Shown here piece by piece: positions 5,237 to 54,186 of a stretch of 64,000 nucleotides of DNA (position 1 is the first letter of the stretch; each line of letters opens with the position of its first letter). Source of the stretch: Tatumella sp. JGM118 (GTDB lineage: Bacteria > Pseudomonadota > Gammaproteobacteria > Enterobacterales > Enterobacteriaceae); contig NZ_JAERJR010000004.1 in assembly GCF_018257515.1 (NCBI RefSeq), positions 186,001 through 250,000 on the forward strand. Reading direction: 5' to 3'. A model generated the notes under the pieces. It saw only the letters and a program-made list of their open reading frames with translations. It did no database searches and had not been told where the DNA came from. Position numbers and translations under genes: made by a program.

Positions 5237-5311
5237 TGGTGTCCCCTGCAGGAATCGAACCTGCAACTAGCCCTTAGGAGGGGCTCGTTATATCCATTTA
5301 ACTAAGGAGAC
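5237..5311 (-). tRNA. argW: tRNA-Arg (anticodon CCU)
   Basis: Read leftward, the 75 nt fold as a tRNA with a 7-bp acceptor stem, D arm, an anticodon stem around loop CTCCTAA (anticodon CCT, reads AGG), T arm with GGTTCGATTCC, and an encoded CCA end. E. coli argW is also tRNA-Arg(CCU), lies beside yfdC and is a known prophage target. Tyrosine integrases have used the gene twice here: an old relic on its 3' side and the complete prophage on its 5' side. Nucleotides 1-23 are the attachment core, so everything upstream of the mature 5' end is now phage DNA. Confidence 0.95.
5289..5311. repeat. attL core (23 bp)
   Basis: The 23 bases from 5289 to 5311 recur exactly at 54164-54186 and bases on both sides then differ. 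They bound the prophage and equal tRNA positions 1-23 (acceptor 5' strand and D arm). Most tRNA-targeting integrases use the anticodon or T arm and preserve the 3' half, so this sublocation is unusual. Confidence 0.95.
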
Positions 5312-5505: not shown

Positions 5506-6675
5506 ATGGCCCTTAGCGATACCAAACTGCGAAACCTCAATGGCAAGCCTTATGACGGACCGGCAGAACTTACTGACGCCGAAGGTCTCAGCGCACGCAT
5601 TACACCCTCCGGGACCATTGCTTTTCAGTTCCGGTACCGCTGGGAAGGTAAGCCGGTACGGCTGACTATCGGACGTTATCCTTCAATGTCTCTTAAGGAC
5701 GCCCGGATCGCTGTCGGCGAGATGCGTGAATTGTACACGCGGGGCATAAACCCGAAAACGTATTTTTCATCGCCTGGCGATGATATCACCCTGCAGGTGT
5801 GCCTTGACCAGTGGTGGGAGAAATATGTAAGCGGCCTAAGAAAGAACACGCAGACGCTGTATCGTTCTGTCGTGTACAACACCATGTACACACATTTTCA
5901 GGGCGTGCCTGTACACAACATACCGGTGTCTCAGTGGGTCCGTTTCTTTGATAAGCAGGAAAAGGATAATAAGAAAAAGGCCAGAGTATTACTGATCCAG
6001 TTGCGCTCCGTTATCAACTGGTGCATCAGCCGGCAGATAATCCCATCCTGTGAAGTGATGAAGCTCAGTGTTAAAACCATTGGCAAGCGGTCCGACGTGG
6101 GGACGAGGGTTCTGACGTATGGTGAGCTGGCAAAGGTATGGGTAGCACTGGAGAATTCAAAGATACATTCTTCAAACCGCATCCTTCACCAGCTGCTGTT
6201 GTTGTGGGGGAGCCGACTTTCAGAGATGAGACTGGCAACAATGTCAGACTTCAATCTTGAGGACATGATATGGACTACGCCGTCTGACGTCTCGAAAATG
6301 GGTAACGTCATCCGGCGTCCGATCTTCAGCCACGTTCAGCCTTATATTGAGCGTCTGATGAATAACGGAAATCACGTACTGTTTCCCGGGATGGAACTGG
6401 ACAAGCCGATAGACCGGTCATCGTCAAACCTTTATATGGCGAAGCTAAGGGAGTTAATTGATATACCAGAATGGCGGACGCACGATTTCAGACGATCCCT
6501 CGTTACGAACCTGTCCAGTGAAGGAGTTCCGCCCCATGTCACCGAAAAGATGCTGGGGCATGAACTTGGGGGAGTGATGGCCGTGTATAACAAACACGAC
6601 TGGATAGCGGAGCAAAAAGAAGCGTATGAAATATATGCCGATAAGATATTCTGGCACGTTAAGAAGCTCGGTTAA
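5506..6675 (+). CDS. int: Prophage tyrosine integrase (P4 family)
   Basis: The 389-residue enzyme catalyses site-specific recombination between attP and argW. The N-terminal arm-binding domain carries the DAEGLSARI and LTIGRYPSMSLKDAR motifs of P4-type integrases. The catalytic domain shows GSRLSEM (first Arg), HDFRR (His326/Arg329), LGHELGG (His352) and the nucleophile Tyr361 in VYNKHDW. Length is normal for the family. It lies about 200 bp inside attL and reads into the prophage; its 3' end overlaps the convergent excisionase gene by 17 bp. It is clearly different from the integrase relic on the other side of the tRNA. Confidence 0.95.
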   Translation: MALSDTKLRNLNGKPYDGPAELTDAEGLSARITPSGTIAFQFRYRWEGKPVRLTIGRYPSMSLKDARIAVGEMRELYTRGINPKTYFSSPGDDITLQVCLDQWWEKYVSGLRKNTQTLYRSVVYNTMYTHFQGVPVHNIPVSQWVRFFDKQEKDNKKKARVLLIQLRSVINWCISRQIIPSCEVMKLSVKTIGKRSDVGTRVLTYGELAKVWVALENSKIHSSNRILHQLLLLWGSRLSEMRLATMSDFNLEDMIWTTPSDVSKMGNVIRRPIFSHVQPYIERLMNNGNHVLFPGMELDKPIDRSSSNLYMAKLRELIDIPEWRTHDFRRSLVTNLSSEGVPPHVTEKMLGHELGGVMAVYNKHDWIAEQKEAYEIYADKIFWHVKKLG

Positions 6676-6931: not shown

Positions 6932-7102
6932 TTACTTACTGTTAATGTGGGGATACTTCTTCAGGAGTTCGGCTGCCTTGAACAATGGGCCTATCCCGAT
7001 CCCCTTGCGGTTGTTGTCTCGGTAGTTATCGAGGACGTCTTTAAGCATCTGCAGGGCTTCGTCGCGCTGTTTCAAAAAATGCGAGTCCAGTTTGTTGCTC
7101 AT
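6932..7102 (-). CDS. Small phage protein, unknown (56 aa)
   Basis: Starts with MSNKLDSHFLKQRDEALQML after a GAGGT ribosome site and is mostly helical and charged. A longer frame to 7258 overlaps the next gene and lacks a good start. I recognise no family. It follows the zinc-finger gene by a few bases in the leftward early operon. Confidence 0.65.
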   Translation of the reverse strand: MSNKLDSHFLKQRDEALQMLKDVLDNYRDNNRKGIGIGPLFKAAELLKKYPHINSK

Positions 7103-7109
7103 TCTGACC

Positions 7110-7316
7110 TCAATGGCGTTTAAACTTCGCTGCGCGTTCTCGTTTCTCGTCATCTTCACGGCAGACTGAATCGCAGTAGTGGCCTTTGCCGATCGTGTCG
7201 CCACAGCTATAGCACTTACCGGTGAATGGCTTCGGCCGCGGGCGGTTCGCCATCGCAATCTTCAGTTGTTGCTGCTCCAGTTCTGACGCCTGGTCGAGTG
7301 GGTCTGCGTAGGTCAT
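7110..7316 (-). CDS. Small zinc-binding phage protein
   Basis: 68 residues with one zinc site, CYSCGDTIGKGHYCDSVC, in a small cysteine cluster, flanked by charged helices. Such single-zinc-ribbon proteins are common in the early left region of lambdoid phages and resemble DksA/TraR-type fingers in spacing, but the DksA acidic tip is not evident. Function unknown. Ribosome site AGGAAAC precedes the ATG. Confidence 0.65.
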   Translation of the reverse strand: MTYADPLDQASELEQQQLKIAMANRPRPKPFTGKCYSCGDTIGKGHYCDSVCREDDEKRERAAKFKRH

Positions 7317-7335
7317 AGTGGTTTCCTTTAGGCAA

Positions 7336-7360
7336 TAAAAAACCGCCTCAGTGGGCGGTT
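7336..7360 (-). terminator. Rho-independent terminator in the left operon
   Basis: AACCGCC and GGCGGTT form the stem and the leftward transcript then has a run of T. The hairpin overlaps the stop codon of the gene ending at 7348. N-modified polymerase would be expected to read through. Confidence 0.8.
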
Positions 7361-7824
7361 TGGTAAGTGTTAGAGAAGAAATCTTTAGCAGCTCTGAATC
7401 TTATTATTAGATATATGTCTTGCTCGGCGGCCAGGTCCCCAAGGGCGTAATTGCCCTCTTTCTGTCTTTTCATTACAAGATTAATAGCTGGCGGGAGCAT
7501 TAAAAGAAAATTATGTTTGAGCCTTTCCTGTGATTCATAGCTGATGCCAGATTCAGTAAGGACGGCATGCGCAACACATATCAAGGCTACGATATTACCC
7601 TTCATTTCTTTTGGTATATTTGATGCCGACAATCCTTTGGCGTGACCGTCTATCCTGTTGGAGATTGAGAGTAAATTCTCAAAGACTTTTACCTCATCCA
7701 TTTTTTCTTGAGACACACTATTAGATTTTGCAGCTTTGTATGCAAACCATGCCGCAGCAACCGTCCCTATTGCTGATCCTAATGAAACTACAAAATCTCC
7801 CCAATTTCCCGCATGCCAACTCAC
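7348..7824 (-). CDS. Membrane-anchored protein, unknown (158 aa)
   Basis: One N-terminal membrane segment (roughly residues 8-30, VVSLGSAIGTVAAAWFAYKA) followed by a soluble helical domain of about 120 residues. I recognise no family. It stands apart from the tiny genes on either side and its lower GC content suggests it is an accessory (moron) gene. Membrane anchoring of a helical cytosolic domain is common in superinfection-exclusion proteins, but nothing specific supports that role. Confidence 0.6.
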   Translation of the reverse strand: MSWHAGNWGDFVVSLGSAIGTVAAAWFAYKAAKSNSVSQEKMDEVKVFENLLSISNRIDGHAKGLSASNIPKEMKGNIVALICVAHAVLTESGISYESQERLKHNFLLMLPPAINLVMKRQKEGNYALGDLAAEQDIYLIIRFRAAKDFFSNTYQTAH

Positions 7825-12420: not shown

Positions 12421-13400
12421 TTAGTAGTTGACGTTCAGGTGCGGTATTTCACCGTCTTTAATGGCTTTAAATGCGCGGACAGCCTGTTCACGGCTAAGGC
12501 CAACGACACTTTCCAGTGCGCCGACCGATTCAGAGCCAATGCGCTTGCGGTGGTTTTCATTTGCTGTGCGCCGGGCCAATTCATCAGCCTTGCGCTTCTC
12601 TTCGGCCAGTCGCGCTTGCTCTGCATGAGCTGCTTTACGGCGTTCAGCTTCGATGGCTCCTGCTTCTCATGCTCAGCCTTTTCACGTGCTTCCCGGGCCT
12701 GACGTTCTGCCAGTTGCTGGGCTTCGATACGCTGCTGCTTTTCCCGTTCGGCTGCGGCCTGTAACTCACGCTCACGGCGTTCAGTCTCTTCGTGGTCACG
12801 CTTGGCCTTTTCCTCGGCCTCACGTTTCACGCGTTCTTCAGCTTCCCTGGCGATACGCTGCTCATGCTCAATGCGTTGCTGCTCTGCCAGGCGGGCGGCT
12901 TCGGCACGGTCACGGTCAAACTTGTCGTTCATAAGCAGGGCGATTTCATGATCGGACTCGAAACGTTCAGCGGCTGCTTTATCGAATACCGCGTTCATTT
13001 CCAGCGCTTCGGCGTGGGCGGCGGCCAGAGCTTCTTCTGCCTTGATGCGTTCCTGCTCAGCTTCCCAGTCGGTCACCGGCTGCCGGATTTCGATAGCCAG
13101 GGCGTCGAGTGCCTCGCGGATTTTCCGGCGGCTGGCATCAACCAGGGCAGGGCGTTTCTTCATCTCAGCAACCAGCGTTTTACCGGCATCATCAATCGCC
13201 ACCTTTGAGCTGCGTACGGTGGCCGCCATGCTGATGTAGGCTTTGCGGCCTTTGGCGGTGTTGATGTCACCAACGACTGATTTCGCCTTGGCGCGGATTT
13301 CTTCAATCAGCCGGTCGGTGTAATCACCGCTGATAAACGCCGCTTCCAGTTCACCCGCCGTCTTTGGCAGGCTGTACAGCTGTAACTCTGTGCTTTCCAT
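12421..13400 (-). pseudogene. Long coiled-coil protein gene with a 1-bp frameshift
   Basis: Residues 1-115 form a helical domain; a very long coiled coil of Glu/Arg/Ala heptads follows. The start frame breaks down at EKQEPSKLNAV and runs on as low-quality sequence to 12435. Near 12655-12660 the neighbouring frame takes over with AIEAERRKAAHAEQARLAEE, continues the coiled coil and ends in a proper domain, IKDGEIPHLNVNY, with a stop at 12421. Losing one A in a GAA GCC pair explains it. Intact homologues of about 326 residues sit upstream of erf in related phages. Either a real mutation or a sequence error. Confidence 0.8.
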
Positions 13401-13465
13401 AATCCTCTCCTGAATGTGGTCATATAACCGCCCACTCAGTGAATGGACGCTGATATGACAGGCAT

Positions 13466-13491
13466 AAAAAAGGCCTCGCCGTAGCGAAGCC
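13466..13491 (-). terminator. Rho-independent terminator in the left operon
   Basis: Leftward transcript forms GGCTTCGC / GCGAGGCC with a short loop and then six T. It lies between N and the coiled-coil gene, the position of lambda tL1, so it is a likely target of N antitermination. Confidence 0.8.
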
Positions 13492-13542
13492 AGATTGAAT
13501 TAGTGCCTGTTTTTGCCGGGGCAGGCTCCCGCTTTCCCTGCT

Positions 13543-13587
13543 TTCCACAGACAAAGGAAACTGATACGTTGGTTATTCCACAGACAA
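13543..13587. repeat. 12-bp direct repeat upstream of the GhoS-like gene
   Basis: TTCCACAGACAA occurs at 13543-13554 and 13576-13587, 33 bp apart, just before the rightward GhoS-like gene. It may be a regulator site for that gene. Confidence 0.6.
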
Positions 13588-13600
13588 TTAAGGAATGATA

Positions 13601-13885
13601 ATGGCAACGTTCACCGTTAGAGTTGAGCTGCATAAAGCAAGCGCAGAAGACTACAGAAATTTACATGAAAAAATGCAGGCCCATGGTTTCAGTAAAATGA
13701 TTACCGCTTCATCTGGTACTACTTACCAATTACCCGAAGCTGAATATACTTATTCATCAATCAGTGAAGATGAGTCACAGGTAGCAAACAAAGCTCAAAG
13801 AGTCGCTAGCGATATAAAGCGCGACCCGGGGATATTAGTTACAAAATCTTCTGGGAGAGCAGTTAGAGGCCTTATAACCGTATAG
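13601..13885 (+). CDS. GhoS-family (DUF2622) small protein
   Basis: 94 residues starting MATFTVRVELHKASAEDYRN, with GFSKMI, YQLPEAEY and a small alpha/beta fold typical of the GhoS/DUF2622 family. E. coli GhoS is an endoribonuclease antitoxin that cleaves ghoT mRNA. Phage members are widespread and usually lack a neighbouring ghoT, as here. It is the only rightward gene in the left operon, so it has its own promoter. The second ATG was chosen because AAGGA is 6 nt before it. Its 3' end overlaps the convergent gene by 14 bp. Confidence 0.75.
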   Translation: MATFTVRVELHKASAEDYRNLHEKMQAHGFSKMITASSGTTYQLPEAEYTYSSISEDESQVANKAQRVASDIKRDPGILVTKSSGRAVRGLITV

Positions 13886-14030
13886 CGCTTCCATCATCAT
13901 CGATATTGTTGAAAGCCCTTTTTGCAAGCCAGATGTGCGCCTGTATCGCTGCGTTTGGCTTAATGGCGTTTAACTTTTCAGCATCTTCAATTAATAAAGC
14001 AACAATGTGCCTCAACTCTTCATTATCCAT
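13872..14030 (-). CDS. Small phage protein (52 aa)
   Basis: Begins MDNEELRHIVALLIEDAEKL after GAGGTGAAGT. A helical, acidic product, just downstream of N. Protein-like composition and a good ribosome site support it; no family recognised. Confidence 0.6.
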   Translation of the reverse strand: MDNEELRHIVALLIEDAEKLNAIKPNAAIQAHIWLAKRAFNNIDDDGSAIRL

Positions 14031-14042
14031 ACTTCACCTCAA

Positions 14043-14288
14043 TCACACTAAAGGAATAGACCGGCCTCTGACCTTCTGACGGCCGGTGCATGTTACCCGG
14101 TCACTCTTGGTGCGGTGGCCGGCTGAATAAATTGCTACGTCTGGCATGCACTCTGTAACCTGCTCAGGGCGATTACGCCAGTTCGGTGCTTTCAGTGCCC
14201 GCTCAACGCGATCAACTGGTTTAAGCTGCATTGCTTCGGCTGCCTTGCGGGCGTTGAACTCTGCCATGCGGCGTCTGTTTCTGTTCAT
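14043..14288 (-). CDS. N: Antitermination protein N
   Basis: 81 residues. The arginine-rich RNA-binding N-terminus is NRNRRRMAEFNARKAAEAM; the middle KPVDRVERALKA corresponds to KPKSRVESALNP of lambda N; the C-terminal TCTGRQKVRGRSIPLV is nearly the lambda ending TCSGRQKIKGKSIPLI. It should bind boxB RNA, recruit NusA/B/E/G and carry pL and pR transcripts past terminators. It is shorter than lambda N (107 residues) because of a gap in the middle. The internal Met is chosen for its GGAGA ribosome site. It is the second gene from pL. Confidence 0.9.
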   Translation of the reverse strand: MNRNRRRMAEFNARKAAEAMQLKPVDRVERALKAPNWRNRPEQVTECMPDVAIYSAGHRTKSDRVTCTGRQKVRGRSIPLV

Positions 14289-14343
14289 TGCTATCTCCAG
14301 TAGTCTCATTCATGCGCCCGGTGACAGACGCATGATGAATTCG

Positions 14344-14496
14344 CTAAAAGTTCCAGCAAGTTGCTTCTGCTTCCTTTGCTATCAACCTGGCAGAAGCTTT
14401 GCCGCTTACAGACTTTGAGAACCACTCGCTGCCATCTTCCAGGTAAACAACAACGAATTTCGTTTTCTTGCTTGCGTAGTAATAAGCCTTTTTCAT
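14344..14496 (-). CDS. Small basic phage protein (50 aa), first gene after pL
   Basis: Starts MKKAYYYASKKTKFVVVYLE after an AGGAAT ribosome site. A short beta-rich protein ending in a helix, with a lone cysteine (ATCWNF). It lies between nutL and N. Function unknown; similar short proteins precede N in some lambdoid phages. Confidence 0.65.
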   Translation of the reverse strand: MKKAYYYASKKTKFVVVYLEDGSEWFSKSVSGKASARLIAKEAEATCWNF

Positions 14497-14634
14497 GGGT
14501 ATTCCTCTGTAAGTTCTTTGGTGGGGGAGTAAGCGCGACATTGTGGCCCTATCTCAGATTGTGCCTACTGCCGTCCCGATACAGCGATAGACTGAGATCT
14601 ACCCCTGATTAATTTTGTGCTCGGTTACTCACCC

Positions 14635-14688
14635 CCGAAGAACTCACTTCGGCCTGTGTATTCACAGGAACCTTGTTTTTAAATAGCA
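14635..14688 (-). promoter_or_regulatory. nutL candidate: boxA and boxB-like hairpin
   Basis: About 70 nt into the pL transcript a boxA-like TGCTATTTAAAA (14688-14677) is followed by CCTGTG-AATA-CACAGG (14668-14653) and directly by a second hairpin CCGAAG-TGAGTT-CTTCGG (14652-14635). The AATA tetraloop on a 6-bp stem recurs at nutR. Confidence 0.7.
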
Positions 14689-14755
14689 GCCTGACTTCAT
14701 GTCCGGCGCGGTAGGTAGTCCGTTTACCGCATCGATGTTTCGTTTCGATGGGTTG

Positions 14756-14790
14756 ATAATATGCGTAAAGCGCAAATGCGTCAAACGCAT
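14756..14790 (-). promoter_or_regulatory. pL promoter and OL operators
   Basis: Leftward TTGACG (14784-14779), a 17-bp spacer and TATTAT (14761-14756) form a strong promoter. Two abutting 15-bp operators overlap it: ATGCG-TAAAG-CGCAA (14761-14775) and ATGCG-TCAAA-CGCAT (14776-14790). The same half-sites occur at OR. Confidence 0.85.
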
Positions 14791-15163
14791 ATTTGAGCTA
14801 GAAATAGGGATCCGAGATTAACTTTATGATTTTATAGATTATTTATTTTTCCTCAGACGAAAAATTCCCGACTTGTGAGTGGCGGGATAAGATAGGGAGA
14901 TTAGATTTGGTTATAGTTTGTTCATTTGTGGATGGGGTTCGCTTAACGACTTATCTGGCTTTTCCCTTACGACCATATTTTCAACAAAAAATGAAGGCAA
15001 GCTACCAACTGAATTGACAGGTCGCTCTGAACAATGAACGAAAATTAATATGATGTTAGAAATGGTCGCTTTAAGGGCAAATATCACCCGAACTAACAGG
15101 ATAGAACTAGTGTCAGAACGCTGTTGCCTGTAAAATTACCGCTTTCATCTTCTTCAGGATTTT
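14791..15163. other. Non-coding stretch between OL and the prenyltransferase gene
   Basis: AT-rich, with no credible frame. A rightward TTGACA lies at 15014-15019, but no well-spaced -10 box follows, so the promoter of the next gene is not clear. Confidence 0.4.
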
Positions 15164-16084
15164 ATGCGTATGTCCCATTCAGAATCCCACGATTTAAGCG
15201 ATATTAAACAAAATGACTGGGTTGAACGCTGGTTCTCGCCAGCTCTTACGTCATACCTTAGGTTGGCGCGCCTCGACCGTCCGGTCGGTATCTGGCTGGT
15301 CCTATTCCCATGCATAGCAGCTCTTTTTCAGGCATCGCACGGCTGGCCCGGAGCAAAAGAAATGTTGGTTTTCTGTTTGGGTGCTTTCCTGATGAGGAGC
15401 GCGGGTTCAACAATCAACGATATTGCTGATCGTAACTTCGATGCACACGTTGAAAGAACCCGCTTCCGCCCTCTTGCAAGCAGGCAGATTTCAACCCGGC
15501 AGGCCGTAATTTTCTTTATTTTTCAGCTGCTTTTCGCTGCTTCGCTGCTCTATTTTCTCAACCCACTCACCCGCCTGATGGCACTGGCAGTCGTGCCGCT
15601 TGTTATTCTTTACCCATTCTGTAAACGGTTTACTTACTGGCCTCAGGCTGTTCTGGGTGCTGCGTTTAATTGGGGAATGCTGATGGCGTGGGCACAAATA
15701 AAAGGTGCTGTACCGCCGAGTGCTATTTTGATATGGCTGGGAGCGGTTGCTTGGCAAATTGGCTATGACACAGTCTACGCTTATGTAGATGCAAGAGATG
15801 ATGTGCGGATCGGTATCAAATCAACTGCGCTGCTTTTTGGGAAATGCGGAAAGGCCAGTATCGGGTTATTTTACACTGCAGCAGTAGCGTTGTGGTCATA
15901 TGGCGGCCTGCTCAGTAGTATGAAAGCCCCTTACTATGTTGCTATGGTTGCCATTGCCATGCACATGTCCTGGCAGGTTTGGCGCCTTGATTTACAGAAG
16001 CCTTCACTAAGTTTTAACATGTTTCTTCATAACATTCTTACCGGTATTCTGTTTGCACTTGCAGCACTGGTAGGTACGTTCTAG
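15164..16084 (+). CDS. UbiA-family polyprenyltransferase carried by the prophage
   Basis: 306 residues, about eight membrane helices. Both catalytic Asp-rich motifs of the UbiA superfamily are intact: NDIADRNFD (85-93) followed by RTRFRPLAS, and YDTVYAYVDARDD (201-213) followed by IGIKSTALLFG. These bind Mg2+ and the prenyl diphosphate; UbiA prenylates 4-hydroxybenzoate in ubiquinone synthesis. The sequence is clearly UbiA-like but not the E. coli-type enzyme. It lies alone on the plus strand between OL and cI, the slot where lambdoid phages carry exclusion genes such as rex and sieB. Ribosome site AGGA precedes the ATG. Substrate in the host is not known; a lysogenic-conversion gene is the simplest reading. 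Confidence 0.9.
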   Translation: MRMSHSESHDLSDIKQNDWVERWFSPALTSYLRLARLDRPVGIWLVLFPCIAALFQASHGWPGAKEMLVFCLGAFLMRSAGSTINDIADRNFDAHVERTRFRPLASRQISTRQAVIFFIFQLLFAASLLYFLNPLTRLMALAVVPLVILYPFCKRFTYWPQAVLGAAFNWGMLMAWAQIKGAVPPSAILIWLGAVAWQIGYDTVYAYVDARDDVRIGIKSTALLFGKCGKASIGLFYTAAVALWSYGGLLSSMKAPYYVAMVAIAMHMSWQVWRLDLQKPSLSFNMFLHNILTGILFALAALVGTF

Positions 16085-16168
16085 TGACGGAAATCAGCTT
16101 CCTGCTGGCAACTACGCATCAGAATAGAGTTGCCATCAGGCGGGGAGAGTACGGTGGGTTACAGGCAC

Positions 16169-16194
16169 AAAAAACCCGGCGCGGTGGCCGGGGT
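16169..16194 (-). terminator. Terminator of the NYN / cI transcript
   Basis: Leftward GCCGGG...CCCGGC type stem (CCCGGC 16175-16180 with GCCGGG 16187-16192) and then TTTTTT. It ends the leftward immunity transcript and separates it from the convergent prenyltransferase gene. Confidence 0.85.
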
Positions 16195-16200
16195 TAGCAG

Positions 16201-17019
16201 TTAATTTTGCTTTTTATGTCGACCAGAAGCCTGTCGGCTCCGCTGGCTTTTAGCTTTCTTTCTATCCTCCCACCAATCTGGTGCTGGGTTCGGTTCTGCA
16301 TGCAATGCATCCGCAAGCCCAGTAATGAGGCTAAATGATTGAACCCCATCTATGTGTTCGGATAGTGAAGGGCTGACGTTTTGTCTGAGGGGATCAAGAA
16401 TGAAATCAATGCCTTTTATGCGGGCGTGCTTTGCTGCCGGAACAAAGTCTGAGTCCCCAGCAACCAATACAATAACATCTACGAGTTTTTCATAAGTAAG
16501 GGTTGTAATGTCTACCCCTAACTTTATATCAACCTGTTTTTGCTTGATGTCATAATAAAAATCATCGTTAGTTAATTCGCTCCACTGCTTATGCCCCTTC
16601 ATCAGGGCATCAAGAGAAAAGCTGGTTAGTTGCCAACGCTTATTGTCAACTAGGTGACCGAGCCGCAGAGCTGTCTTTCTTGTCTTTCTTAGCTCTTCGT
16701 GAAGCTCAGTTCTTAACTGATAGGACTTATCTAGCTTGAAGTTTTTACGCCCAGGGGTTTTATTTCCTGGCTCAGGGAGTGGGTATCTTGTTTGTATATC
16801 TAAAGGAGGGCAGTCATAAAAATAGATACGGTAGAGTTCGAGTGGATCTCTTCTCTCCTGAGATTGCTTCCTGTCCTTGAGGTGTGAAATTACCATCGAC
16901 CATATCACTTTCATGATACAAGGTGCCGTTAATTCCTCAGACGAGAAGTGCTTTCTATGTGTTGCATTTAGACGCTGCATAAAAAATCCGGCGTCTATCA
17001 GTATTGCTGCTTTTTTCAT
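16201..17019 (-). CDS. NYN-domain (PIN-like) nuclease
   Basis: 272 residues. The N-terminus AAILIDAGFFMQRL gives the first acidic residue of a NYN/DUF88 fold; KQVDIKLGVDITTL supplies the central acidic pair; VIVLVAGDSDFVPAAKHARIKG is the hallmark GDSDF motif. NYN proteins are metal-dependent ribonucleases. A charged insert of about 100 residues separates the first two motifs, and the C-terminus is basic. It lies downstream of cI on the same strand, the rexAB position, so expression in the lysogen and a role in excluding other phages are plausible. A large terminator hairpin lies just before its start codon. Confidence 0.8.
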   Translation of the reverse strand: MKKAAILIDAGFFMQRLNATHRKHFSSEELTAPCIMKVIWSMVISHLKDRKQSQERRDPLELYRIYFYDCPPLDIQTRYPLPEPGNKTPGRKNFKLDKSYQLRTELHEELRKTRKTALRLGHLVDNKRWQLTSFSLDALMKGHKQWSELTNDDFYYDIKQKQVDIKLGVDITTLTYEKLVDVIVLVAGDSDFVPAAKHARIKGIDFILDPLRQNVSPSLSEHIDGVQSFSLITGLADALHAEPNPAPDWWEDRKKAKSQRSRQASGRHKKQN

Positions 17020-17028
17020 AAAAAATCC

Positions 17029-17088
17029 AAAAAAAAGCCCGGAGCCGTTATGCAGATATTAACAATTGTCTGCGAACGGGGCCGGGCT
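17029..17088 (-). terminator. Long hairpin with U tract between cI and the NYN gene
   Basis: AGCCCGG at 17088-17082 (leftward) pairs with CCGGGCT, and an inner stem CCGTTCGCAGA with TCTGCATAACGG extends it to about 20 pairs; eight T follow. It is a strong terminator only 10 nt before the NYN start codon, so it may attenuate that gene. Confidence 0.75.
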
Positions 17089-17238
17089 GGTGAGTAAAAT
17101 CTACTTAAACTTGACCCGTGAGTCAAACAAAAAAAACCAGAAGAATTAAAAAAAACAGAAAAGCAAAAAAAACAAAAACGTAAAAAACGGAAAAACCAAT
17201 TCACTTAAACCGCATCTTGGCCTCAACGGCTACACCAA
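17089..17238. other. T-rich (leftward) low-complexity tract after cI
   Basis: Runs of seven to eight identical bases alternate with short spacers at 17128-17200. A GTG-started frame 17204-17016 would encode a very hydrophobic 62-residue peptide whose stop overlaps the NYN ATG, but its ribosome site is poor. Confidence 0.4.
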
Positions 17239-17916
17239 TTACCCATGCTTCCTGTAAGTCTGCGGCATACTTCCGATTACCTTACCGAAGATGACTACAC
17301 GATTCATTTCGTCGCGTTCTATGGGGTCCCATGGCGTGTAGTTCTTGTTGTCAGAGATAACCAGCAGCTTGTCTTTCATTTTCTGCAGGCGCTTCACGTG
17401 GGCAGTGTCGTCGTACAGGAAGGTGTATATCCCATCCCCTTCAAACATCTTGATACTGACGTCCACAAACAGCAGATCACCGGCCTCTATCGTTCCAGAC
17501 ATACTGTCGCCATTGGCGCTAATTACCTTCACACTATCCAGGCTTCTGCCGCTGAAAAGAGCTTTCGCCTCTTCCGACGTGTATTCGATCGCCCGAACCT
17601 TCTCTACGAAGTCATGAGTCAGGTAAGTTCCAGGTCCGGCGCTGGCCTGGATGTCGAGAACGTCAACCCTGTGGCTTGAAATAGGGCGATTCACCGGCTC
17701 AATGTCGGTTGGCATATCATCAGAAAAAAGGTCGGCAACTTTCACACCTAGAGCTTCGGCGATCTTAATCAATGTTGACTCTGTATAACCCTGCTTGCCT
17801 GTTTCTAGACGTGAAATATTACCCACGTCACTGCCTACAGATGTGGCTAATTCAAGGATTGTCATTTTCTTCGCTTTGCGAAGTTGTCTGATGCGAGTTC
17901 CAATTTTCATATCCAT
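17239..17916 (-). CDS. cI: CI-type phage repressor
   Basis: 225 residues. An XRE helix-turn-helix (residues 5-60, IRQLRKAKKMTILELATSVG and NISRLETGKQG) binds operators; a LexA/S24 domain follows. The self-cleavage site is Ala93-Gly94 in QASAGPGT, the nucleophile Ser138 in GDSMSG and the base Lys175 in AHVKRLQ. The repressor should hold pL and pR shut and be inactivated by RecA after DNA damage. AAGGA precedes the ATG. The operator ATGCG-N5-CGCAT lies over both early promoters. Confidence 0.95.
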   Translation of the reverse strand: MDMKIGTRIRQLRKAKKMTILELATSVGSDVGNISRLETGKQGYTESTLIKIAEALGVKVADLFSDDMPTDIEPVNRPISSHRVDVLDIQASAGPGTYLTHDFVEKVRAIEYTSEEAKALFSGRSLDSVKVISANGDSMSGTIEAGDLLFVDVSIKMFEGDGIYTFLYDDTAHVKRLQKMKDKLLVISDNKNYTPWDPIERDEMNRVVIFGKVIGSMPQTYRKHG

Positions 17917-17929
17917 ATTGAAGTCCTTT

Positions 17930-17993
17930 TTTGCGTCACTCGCAAAGCGTGTTGCGCATATATGACATATGTATTAATATGCGTGCAGCGCAT
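17930..17993 (+). promoter_or_regulatory. pR promoter and OR operators
   Basis: TTGCGC (17952-17957), a 17-bp spacer and TAATAT (17975-17980) form pR. Three operators: TTGCG-TCACT-CGCAA (17931-17945), AAGCG-TGTTG-CGCAT (17945-17959) and ATGCG-TGCAG-CGCAT (17979-17993). The half-sites match those at OL. Confidence 0.85.
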
Positions 17994-18008
17994 TTAATGG
18001 AGGTAGTC

Positions 18009-18244: not shown

Positions 18245-18281
18245 CGCTCTTTAACAGTCTGCCACCCTCGGAATACCAGGG
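18245..18281 (+). promoter_or_regulatory. nutR: boxA and boxB-like hairpin
   Basis: CGCTCTTTAACA (18245-18256) is an essentially perfect boxA. Eight bases later CCCT-C-GG-AATA-CC-AGGG (18265-18281) forms a 6-bp stem with one bulged C and an AATA loop, as at nutL. It lies after cro, as in lambda. Confidence 0.75.
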
Positions 18282-18340
18282 ACCAATTTAAGTGACAGCA
18301 CCTGCTGATCACTCAACTACACACACAAGGATTTAATCAA

Positions 18341-18637
18341 ATGGAACATGCAAATAACAGCAAGCTATCTCAGCGAGCCATAGACCGGGCGGAGACTGAT
18401 TTACTCATCAACCTTGCCACGCTGACACAGCGCAAGCTGGCGGCCCTCGTAGGGTGCCACGAATCGAAGATAAGCAGAACAGACTGGAGATTTATTGCTT
18501 CGGTGCTTTGTGCTTTCGGAATGGCATCAGACGTTAGTCCGATCAGCAGGGCGTTTCAGGAAATGTTTAACGTTCTGACAAAGAAAAAGGCCACTGCGGG
18601 AACAGTAGCCTCTACACAACTAACCATTGATTTCTAA
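18341..18637 (+). CDS. cII: CII-type transcriptional activator
   Basis: 98 residues, nearly the length of lambda CII (97). ETDLLINLATLTQRKLAALV and CHESKISRTDWRFIASVLCAFG match the CII helix-turn-helix in layout, and the C-terminus ends STQLTIDF as in CII (EQIQMEF). CII binds paired TTGC sites to activate the establishment promoter of cI and the int promoter. Position after cro and before O agrees. Confidence 0.9.
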   Translation: MEHANNSKLSQRAIDRAETDLLINLATLTQRKLAALVGCHESKISRTDWRFIASVLCAFGMASDVSPISRAFQEMFNVLTKKKATAGTVASTQLTIDF

Positions 18638-18661
18638 ACAACTCAACAGGGGTAATTATAC

Positions 18662-18820
18662 ATGAAAAACACGAAGAAAATCCAGGGTAAGGCACCAGAA
18701 TTTCACCCGGAAAGACCGGTCAGTCTGGTCGATGTTGCAGTTAAAAATCGGGCCTTTGCTGCCCGGCTTATTGGTGAGTATCGACTGGCTAAAGCGGGGG
18801 TGAAGAATGGTCGCCGCTAG
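18662..18820 (+). CDS. Small phage protein between cII and O (52 aa)
   Basis: Starts MKNTKKIQGKAPEFHPERPV; basic and partly helical. Its 3' end overlaps the O start by 14 bp. Related short genes occupy this position in other lambdoid phages. No function known. Confidence 0.6.
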   Translation: MKNTKKIQGKAPEFHPERPVSLVDVAVKNRAFAARLIGEYRLAKAGVKNGRR

Positions 18821-19682
18821 ACATTTATCGCTGGTTCAAAATGAGCCGGTAAACGAAGAACTGGAGCGCAAAGTGGCCGACACCGATGATGGGTATACCC
18901 GCATCGCCAACGAGCTACTGGAAGCCGTTATGTCAGCCGATTTAACTGCCCGGCAGCTAAAAGTTGTGCTTGCGATCATCAGGAAAACATACGGATTTGG
19001 CAAGAAGCTGGACAGGATAACCAATACCCAGATCGCTGCGATGACAGGCATTCATCACACGCATGTCTGTAAAGCAAAAAACGAAATGATTGCGATGCGA
19101 ATCCTTGTTTCTACAGGGATTGCAGTCGGGGTAAACAAGGTCGTTTCTGACTGGAATACCGGCATTAGCCAACATAGCGAAACATTAGCCAAACCAGCTA
19201 ATGAAACATTAGCTAAGTCAGCTAATACCCATAAGCCAAGTCAGCTAAACACAAAAGAAACTATTCAAAAGAAAAAAGAAACTACCCCTAAATCCCCAGA
19301 GGGGAGTTTGTCGGTTCAGGAAGAATCAAACCCTGAAAAGCCAAAACGCAGTAGGAAGAAAAACTCTGAAATCCAACTCGACCACCAACGGTTCATAAAC
19401 ACTTGGAACGCCAAGGCCGAGAAATACGGACTACCAAGAATCACCGTGATCAGCAAAACCAATCTGGCTGGACTGACCCGCCTGTATACCTCGCATGTTG
19501 CGTACTGCAAGCAAACAGGCTGCGAACCGGCTGACGTGGACACGATGGTTAACGGGTATATCGAGTTTGGCTACACGCCTACGGATTATGCCTGCGGGAA
19601 TAACCCGAGCGGCACGAAGTATGGCCTTCCCACTGCGCTGACACAGCGGATGATCGACTCCATCCTGACGACTGAGGCCTGA
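18807..19682 (+). CDS. O: Replication initiator O
   Basis: 291 residues. The N-terminal winged-helix domain (residues 25-110, DGYTRIANELLEAVMSADLT and TQIAAMTGIHHTHVCKAKNE) binds origin iterons; a linker encodes those iterons; the C-terminal part (WNAKAEKYGLPRITVISK) binds the helicase. The gene itself contains ori, as in lambda. Its partner is the DnaB-like helicase directly downstream instead of a lambda P loader. Confidence 0.92.
   Translation: MVAARHLSLVQNEPVNEELERKVADTDDGYTRIANELLEAVMSADLTARQLKVVLAIIRKTYGFGKKLDRITNTQIAAMTGIHHTHVCKAKNEMIAMRILVSTGIAVGVNKVVSDWNTGISQHSETLAKPANETLAKSANTHKPSQLNTKETIQKKKETTPKSPEGSLSVQEESNPEKPKRSRKKNSEIQLDHQRFINTWNAKAEKYGLPRITVISKTNLAGLTRLYTSHVAYCKQTGCEPADVDTMVNGYIEFGYTPTDYACGNNPSGTKYGLPTALTQRMIDSILTTEA
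19164..19285. other. Phage replication origin: four 19-bp iterons plus AT-rich tract
   Basis: Four dyad iterons within O: ATTAGCCAACATAGCGAAA (19164-19182), ATTAGCCAAACCAGCTAAT (19184-19202), ATTAGCTAAGTCAGCTAAT (19208-19226) and ATAAGCCAAGTCAGCTAAA (19231-19249). Start spacings are 20, 24 and 23 bp. A purine-rich A tract follows (19250-19285), where lambda ori unwinds. Confidence 0.9.
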
Positions 19683-54163: not shown

Positions 54164-54186
54164 TATATCCATTTAACTAAGGAGAC
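54164..54186. repeat. attR core (23 bp)
   Basis: Exact copy of 5289-5311. The chromosomal side (54187 on) is the original upstream region of argW; the phage side does not complete a tRNA. Confidence 0.95.

Follow-up and report, generated by a model that had tools for sequence, protein, structure and literature searches.

A second, intact ubiA gene in the immunity region of a Tatumella prophage, on a cassette shared with plasmids

The UbiA of proteobacteria (NCBIfam TIGR01474, ubiA_proteo) is a 4-hydroxybenzoate (4-HB) octaprenyltransferase, in which Arg72 and Asp191 (E. coli numbering) bind 4-HB. Two kinds of mobile gene invite comparison with the copy described here. Mobile target-bypass resistance genes, dfrA and mupA among them, usually take the form of a divergent spare copy of the target, and in other lambdoid phages the exclusion genes rexAB and sieB occupy the slot in which we find ubiA. 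In P2-like phages, the slot between gpA and gpQ is described as a hotspot of anti-phage systems, including old, tin and others (PMC9122126). UbiA itself is the target of the natural antibiotic 3,6-dihydroxy-1,2-benzisoxazole (DHB), which Photorhabdus, Vibrio and Chromobacterium are reported to make, and was recently proposed as the target of a Gram-negative-selective antibiotic (both in PMC11481567).

The prophage gene resembles proteobacterial UbiA in its above-cut-off family score, Asp motifs, 4-HB residues and modelled fold, but belongs to a separate subclade, has no ubiC beside it and is found on a prophage and on plasmids. With target-bypass genes it shares the form of a divergent, stand-alone second copy of a target, carried on plasmids and phages beside the resident one. 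With both sets of exclusion genes it shares the slot, here that of rexAB and sieB and in a P2-like phage that of the gpA–gpQ genes; unlike them, it encodes a core metabolic enzyme that has spread mostly outside phages and matches no PADLOC family. The enzyme family is known. For a ubiquinone-synthesis moron in lambdoid and P2-like phages, or a cassette of this kind shared with plasmids, we found no description in the open-licence literature searched (preprints excluded), nor did the same literature yield any mobile ubiA, phage-borne ubiquinone genes or target-bypass gene for UbiA; a first-pass annotation of this DNA had likewise known of no such phage system.

The prophage and its immunity region

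The window, the whole 64,000-nucleotide stretch of Tatumella sp. JGM118 that was analysed, contains a prophage of about 48.9 kb bounded by exact 23-bp repeats at 5289 and 54164. Its features around the UbiA gene and at its ends are as follows.

5289–5311, no strand: left att repeat, 23 bp, inside tRNA-Arg(CCT) (exact repeat)
5506–6675, plus strand: phage integrase (ORF scan)
14043–14309, minus strand: N-like antitermination protein (family matches)
14756–14784, minus strand: pL-like promoter (10/12) overlapping OL and reading away from ubiA (consensus match only)
14762–14789, no strand: OL, two operator-like sites TGCGTNNNNCGCA, at 14762 and 14777 (motif scan)
15023–16107, plus strand: cassette shared with Pantoea plasmid pVag1 (locus L095, 11859–12944), 84.7% (nucleotide comparison)
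15164–16084, plus strand: UbiA, second copy, 4-HB polyprenyltransferase type, 306 aa (ORF, Pfam, NCBIfam, alignment, fold model)
16175–16192, minus strand: terminator-like hairpin and T run, leftward, after the cI–NYN genes and between NYN and ubiA (consensus match only)
16201–17019, minus strand: NYN-domain protein (phrog_5783), directly downstream of cI (family matches)
17239–17916, minus strand: cI-type repressor with S24 peptidase domain (family matches)
17932–17992, no strand: OR, two operator-like sites TGCGTNNNNCGCA, at 17932 and 17980 (motif scan)
54164–54186, no strand: right att repeat, 23 bp, identical to the left (exact repeat)

Products recognised in ten scanned ORFs of the prophage include the integrase, an O-like protein, a DnaB-like helicase, terminase, portal, tape measure and another tail protein, and a CII-like gene is present besides the N-like gene and cI. 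The operator-like sites TGCGTNNNNCGCA are absent from the rest of the window beyond the OL and OR pairs; scanning both strands gave 5 matches against 0.63 expected, and as many were seen in 0 of 100 shuffles. Because neither promoters nor terminators were enriched over shuffles (3 promoter sites against 6.8 in shuffles, hence fewer; 7 terminator-like hairpins against 5.0 expected), the pL-like promoter, the hairpin and expression in the lysogen are to be read as putative. The promoter scan found no strong promoter upstream of the UbiA gene. As judged from its sequence, a complete-looking lambdoid prophage carries, between OL/pL and cI, an intact second UbiA on a moron-like cassette.

The UbiA gene is convergent with the cI–NYN genes and divergent from pL. 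We considered whether it belongs to the cI operon and rejected this, as it lies on the opposite strand with the NYN gene and the terminator-like hairpin intervening. The first-pass annotation had placed the gene in an accessory slot between pL/OL and cI of a lambdoid prophage; the flanking operator-like sites, N-like gene and cI bear out this location, and the slot is now refined to one outside the cI operon.

The adjoining NYN gene (16201–17019) has counterparts, about 75% alike, in many E. coli prophages (302 matching records), and PADLOC relates it faintly to LabA-like NYN nucleases. The UbiA gene itself gave no sign of a copy in E. coli: in none of 5,426 genomes did any one place cover 80% of positions 14800–17100 of the window, and the 20 listed of the 302 matching records align to the NYN part only.

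Identity of the prophage enzyme and its relation to the resident UbiA

The reading frame of the prophage gene is unbroken. Several homologues begin close to an ATG at 15170, which may be the true start. Its product matches Pfam UbiA over residues 46–290 (E 8.7e-58; 196 bits against a cut-off of 34.2) and scores 306 bits against TIGR01474, for which the cut-off is 275.45. In alignment, both Asp motifs are present, together with the residues that correspond to E. coli Arg72 and Asp191, and all of these are kept in 112/112 rows of the subclade (duplicate loci counted). A fold model built with 25 relatives reached a mean pLDDT of 91.5; the poor single-sequence model (pLDDT 50.1) was set aside. The best solved structures for the model are UbiA-superfamily enzymes, including the Aeropyrum UbiA homologue 4od4/4od5, which a sequence search with the prophage protein also found. 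A BFVD search gave no match at E <= 0.001, the best rows being giant-virus UbiA-like proteins. By family, residues and modelled fold, the prophage protein is very probably a 4-HB polyprenyltransferase.

The host genome has its own ubiC-ubiA-plsB on another contig (plsB recognised by eye), and the two UbiA proteins are 41% identical. The five other genomes searched in the genus Tatumella have housekeeping-type UbiA only, about 40% identical to the prophage copy. Two trees, with 77 and 44 sequences, place the prophage UbiA within a subclade (support 99 in the quick tree, 97/98 in the careful tree) that stands apart in both from the gamma- and alphaproteobacterial housekeeping UbiAs sampled. An enterobacterial group of seven rows is well supported in the quick tree (96, for nine rows) but poorly in the careful tree (89/38, with a five-row core at 95/87). 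The careful tree neither supports nor rejects a single origin of all accessory copies (p 0.34).

We then searched 18 genomes from 19 chosen loci (L033 left out) with TIGR01474. In Alcaligenaceae, the subclade enzyme was the sole match above cut-off in 5/5 genomes; in the other 13/13 it was present besides a housekeeping UbiA, as it is in Tatumella sp. JGM118. From the status of the subclade enzyme as sole above-cut-off match in those five Alcaligenaceae genomes, we infer that the prophage UbiA forms 3-polyprenyl-4-hydroxybenzoate. The first-pass annotation's intact UbiA-type prenyltransferase with both Asp motifs therefore holds as to frame, motifs and family, and is narrowed by sequence to a 4-HB polyprenyltransferase of the subclade that provides the only such UbiA of Alcaligenaceae.

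The same observations bear on whether the enzyme prenylates a compound other than 4-HB, such as a plant phenolic or a phage-related product, instead of a ubiquinone precursor. UbiA enzymes are described as promiscuous (PMC11481567) and many carriers are plant-associated by name, but the 4-HB residues are kept, the subclade supplies the sole above-cut-off UbiA of Alcaligenaceae and no biosynthetic neighbours recur (see below), so we give a different acceptor little credence.

Distribution, neighbours and selection

Of 206 relatives found in named genomes we kept 80 loci, which by title comprise 59 mostly from Rhizobiales, 20 from Alcaligenaceae or named Burkholderiaceae and one from Pantoea allii. 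In a Rhizobium-type genus (name inferred), 68/148 genomes carry a subclade UbiA; one listed match there has an in-frame stop, and one group of Rhizobium loci shares a common chromosomal place for ubiA. At strict E-values, a subclade copy occurs in 3/392 genomes of the window's family, 2/398 of its phylum and 1/394 of its order, the window's own being counted each time. Among plasmid records, 53 of 72,556 match, 7 of them at >=60% identity. Three scans of viral contigs found a single IMG/VR contig, a P2-like phage (L084) whose UbiA gene lies between gpA and gpQ. The subclade UbiA is accordingly far commoner as a plasmid or chromosomal accessory gene than as a phage gene.

Some matches were set aside. 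Seven matches to phage records were rejected as subclade members, all being under 60% identity; of these, L135 has a ubiC-ubiA stretch and looks like host chromosome filed as phage, and the plasmid matches L133, L136 and L139 are chromosome-like. In the P2-like phage, a 268-aa gene of phrog_26461 (6984–7790) adjoins ubiA in the gpA–gpQ slot, and a gene matching the PADLOC candidate PDC-S33 (18260–19333) lies downstream of the head genes. A Streptomyces plasmid (L142) encodes an annotated 4-hydroxybenzoate octaprenyltransferase, with an oxygenase gene next to it and two ABC-F genes nearby; because Gram-positives are said to be without ubiquinone (PMC11481567), the substrate of this enzyme is probably a different one. 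Chelatococcus caeni (L060) and Gemmobacter caeni (L061), which belong to different orders, have identical accessory UbiA proteins in matching gene surroundings, a sign that a larger element may have been transferred recently.

When positions 13000–18000 of the window were compared with a 24.9-kb stretch of pVag1, the sole similar part was 15023–16107 (about 1.08 kb), that is, the UbiA gene flanked by about 140 bp upstream and 23 bp downstream. The P2-like phage and Enterobacter, Klebsiella and Kluyvera plasmids likewise have a unit of about 1.1 kb in common. Its recurrence on plasmids and in a second phage suggests that the cassette brings its carriers some advantage.

To describe the surroundings of the cassette, we scanned 91 neighbour proteins from 27 loci: two genes on each side at 23 loci chosen by eye for differing contexts, with neighbours under 90 aa in those 23 left out, plus eight single proteins; for L095, L097, L098 and L100 the annotated neighbours were inspected outside the scan. 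The 91 proteins matched 127 Pfam families, none of which occurred in more than three proteins, and no PADLOC model occurred in more than two. A biosynthetic cluster or an obligate partner gene was rejected as unsupported, the neighbours of the 27 loci being varied.

Shared surroundings were seen locally. An Enterobacter kobei plasmid (L099, 9268–12437) and a chromosome (G218, locus L143, 9589–12340) have in common an HD-domain gene adjoining ubiA and a DJ-1/AraC-type regulator, possibly as parts of a larger stress island. On Klebsiella and Kluyvera plasmids (L097 and L098; 9885–10233 and 11468–11815), and likewise in L144 (genome G366), the intact ubiA cassette is accompanied, at a distance of about 1.6 kb, by the front part of another one, 89% alike, which ends beside an IS1 element; this arrangement indicates that two ubiA cassettes formerly stood in tandem.

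Between copies on different elements, dN/dS was 0.050–0.096 in the 9 of 15 pairs that were computable, with dS above 1.7 in five of these nine and saturated in the other six of the 15. Because dS is high or saturated elsewhere, the sound values are those of the four pairs with dS <0.6, namely 0.093 (prophage/pVag1; dN 0.050, dS 0.542), 0.089, 0.089 and 0.075. These ratios indicate purifying selection on the UbiA copies carried by mobile DNA.

Purifying selection of this kind disfavours the reading that the gene is a passenger, picked up by chance and without function in the phage. Rare phage carriage, with one other viral contig, is what such a passenger would lead one to expect, but the low dN relative to dS between the prophage and pVag1 copies, the intact frame and a sequence not derived from the resident gene make it very improbable. 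A chance host fragment was rejected on similar grounds, the resident gene being 41% identical and located elsewhere and the prophage type being under purifying selection; the first-pass annotation had named the finding of homologues only as such fragments as a reason to abandon its proposal, but plasmids, the P2-like phage and, in the form of second copies, chromosomes all carry intact relatives that are under purifying selection.

The first-pass annotation had also suggested that the gene might block superinfection, through the membrane protein or its product acting against other phages. In both phages the gene occupies an accessory slot. The Tatumella prophage carries it next to OL, the P2-like phage in the gpA–gpQ interval, a described anti-phage hotspot (PMC9122126); since exclusion genes are at home in these places, a role against phages keeps a small but real chance. 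Several findings weigh against it: no PADLOC family matches UbiA at E 0.001, no PADLOC model recurs in more than two of the 91 neighbours, the protein retains every active-site residue of an ordinary enzyme, and the 68/148 Rhizobium-type genomes and several plasmids carry the gene without an evident phage setting. The main text of PMC9122126 contains neither 'ubiA' nor 'prenyltransferase'. The fit of the phage slots stands, while a benefit to the host seems likelier than exclusion, because the gene is mostly plasmid-borne or chromosomal and a single phage contig was found in three scans.

A spare UbiA as a possible bypass of natural inhibitors

Our preferred reading of that host benefit, which we advance tentatively, is that the prophage UbiA serves as a stand-alone spare that would sustain ubiquinone synthesis when mimics of 4-HB block the resident enzyme. 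The prophage enzyme would sit in the host membrane, draw on the 4-HB and octaprenyl diphosphate that the host makes and work by itself, and its product would feed host ubiquinone synthesis alongside that of the resident UbiA; no partner would be needed, because one enzyme carries out the whole step in other bacteria. Natural 4-HB mimics such as DHB would attack the resident UbiA, a divergent and less sensitive spare would keep its carrier respiring under them, and this bypass benefit would maintain mobile carriage, as for target-bypass resistance genes. By analogy with such genes, the mobile Alcaligenaceae-like ubiA could be an environmental resistance gene against natural UbiA inhibitors, spread by plasmids and temperate phages, a broader proposal that we advance just as tentatively.

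Published work on DHB bears on both proposals. DHB competes with 4-HB and is itself prenylated, and its potency drops as UbiA diverges from E. coli UbiA (PMC11481567). Resident UbiA converts DHB to a toxic product (PMC11481567), so a spare copy would protect only partly, the resident enzyme still making that product. Of the published DHB-resistance positions, 180 differs from E. coli in 112/112 subclade rows and 170 in 110/112, while the third is unchanged in 111/112 (duplicate loci counted). The differing residues also occur in Alcaligenaceae housekeeping UbiAs, and at position 180 the host's own housekeeping UbiA and that of P. aeruginosa, among many, differ from E. coli too; the differences may therefore mean nothing, and we take them as a hint of insensitivity at most.

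The distribution agrees with a bypass in two respects: an extra copy stands beside the resident target in 13/13 non-Alcaligenaceae genomes and in the window's own, and the gene has spread horizontally on mobile DNA, being carried by the prophage, the P2-like phage and 7 of 72,556 plasmid records at >=60% identity. In a Photorhabdus-like genus we found no second UbiA, with a single above-cut-off UbiA in 12/12 genomes (the genus being so named here from luxCDABE in one of them), and hence no sign of a self-resistance copy in this kind of DHB producer. That both phage copies lie in accessory slots counts against the bypass reading, as does the lack of a strong promoter ahead of the prophage gene in the promoter scan.

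A spare UbiA might instead raise or re-time ubiquinone through its own control or kinetics, for example under oxidative stress, with no inhibitor involved. An enzyme of functional type without a recurring partner gene would suit this, as would the clpK heat-survival genes near the ubiA copies on Klebsiella and Kluyvera plasmids. Dosage alone, however, would not require a foreign, 41%-identical version, and the enterobacterial members seen all fall into the prophage-UbiA subclade, or, in the case of Pantoea allii, into the Alcaligenaceae type, in searches not aimed at native-type extras. We therefore consider a respiratory boost unlikely, if well worth keeping in view.

If a less sensitive UbiA already circulates on plasmids and prophages, as the bypass reading holds, this would bear on drugs that target UbiA and show to which compounds bacteria of soil and plants are exposed. 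Were resistance its true function, the gene would be the first known transferable resistance to the UbiA target class, predating clinical use. Otherwise, the locus would still be an uncommon case of a temperate phage that carries one of the core steps of ubiquinone synthesis, and its lysogen would offer a direct test system for phage tuning of host respiration.
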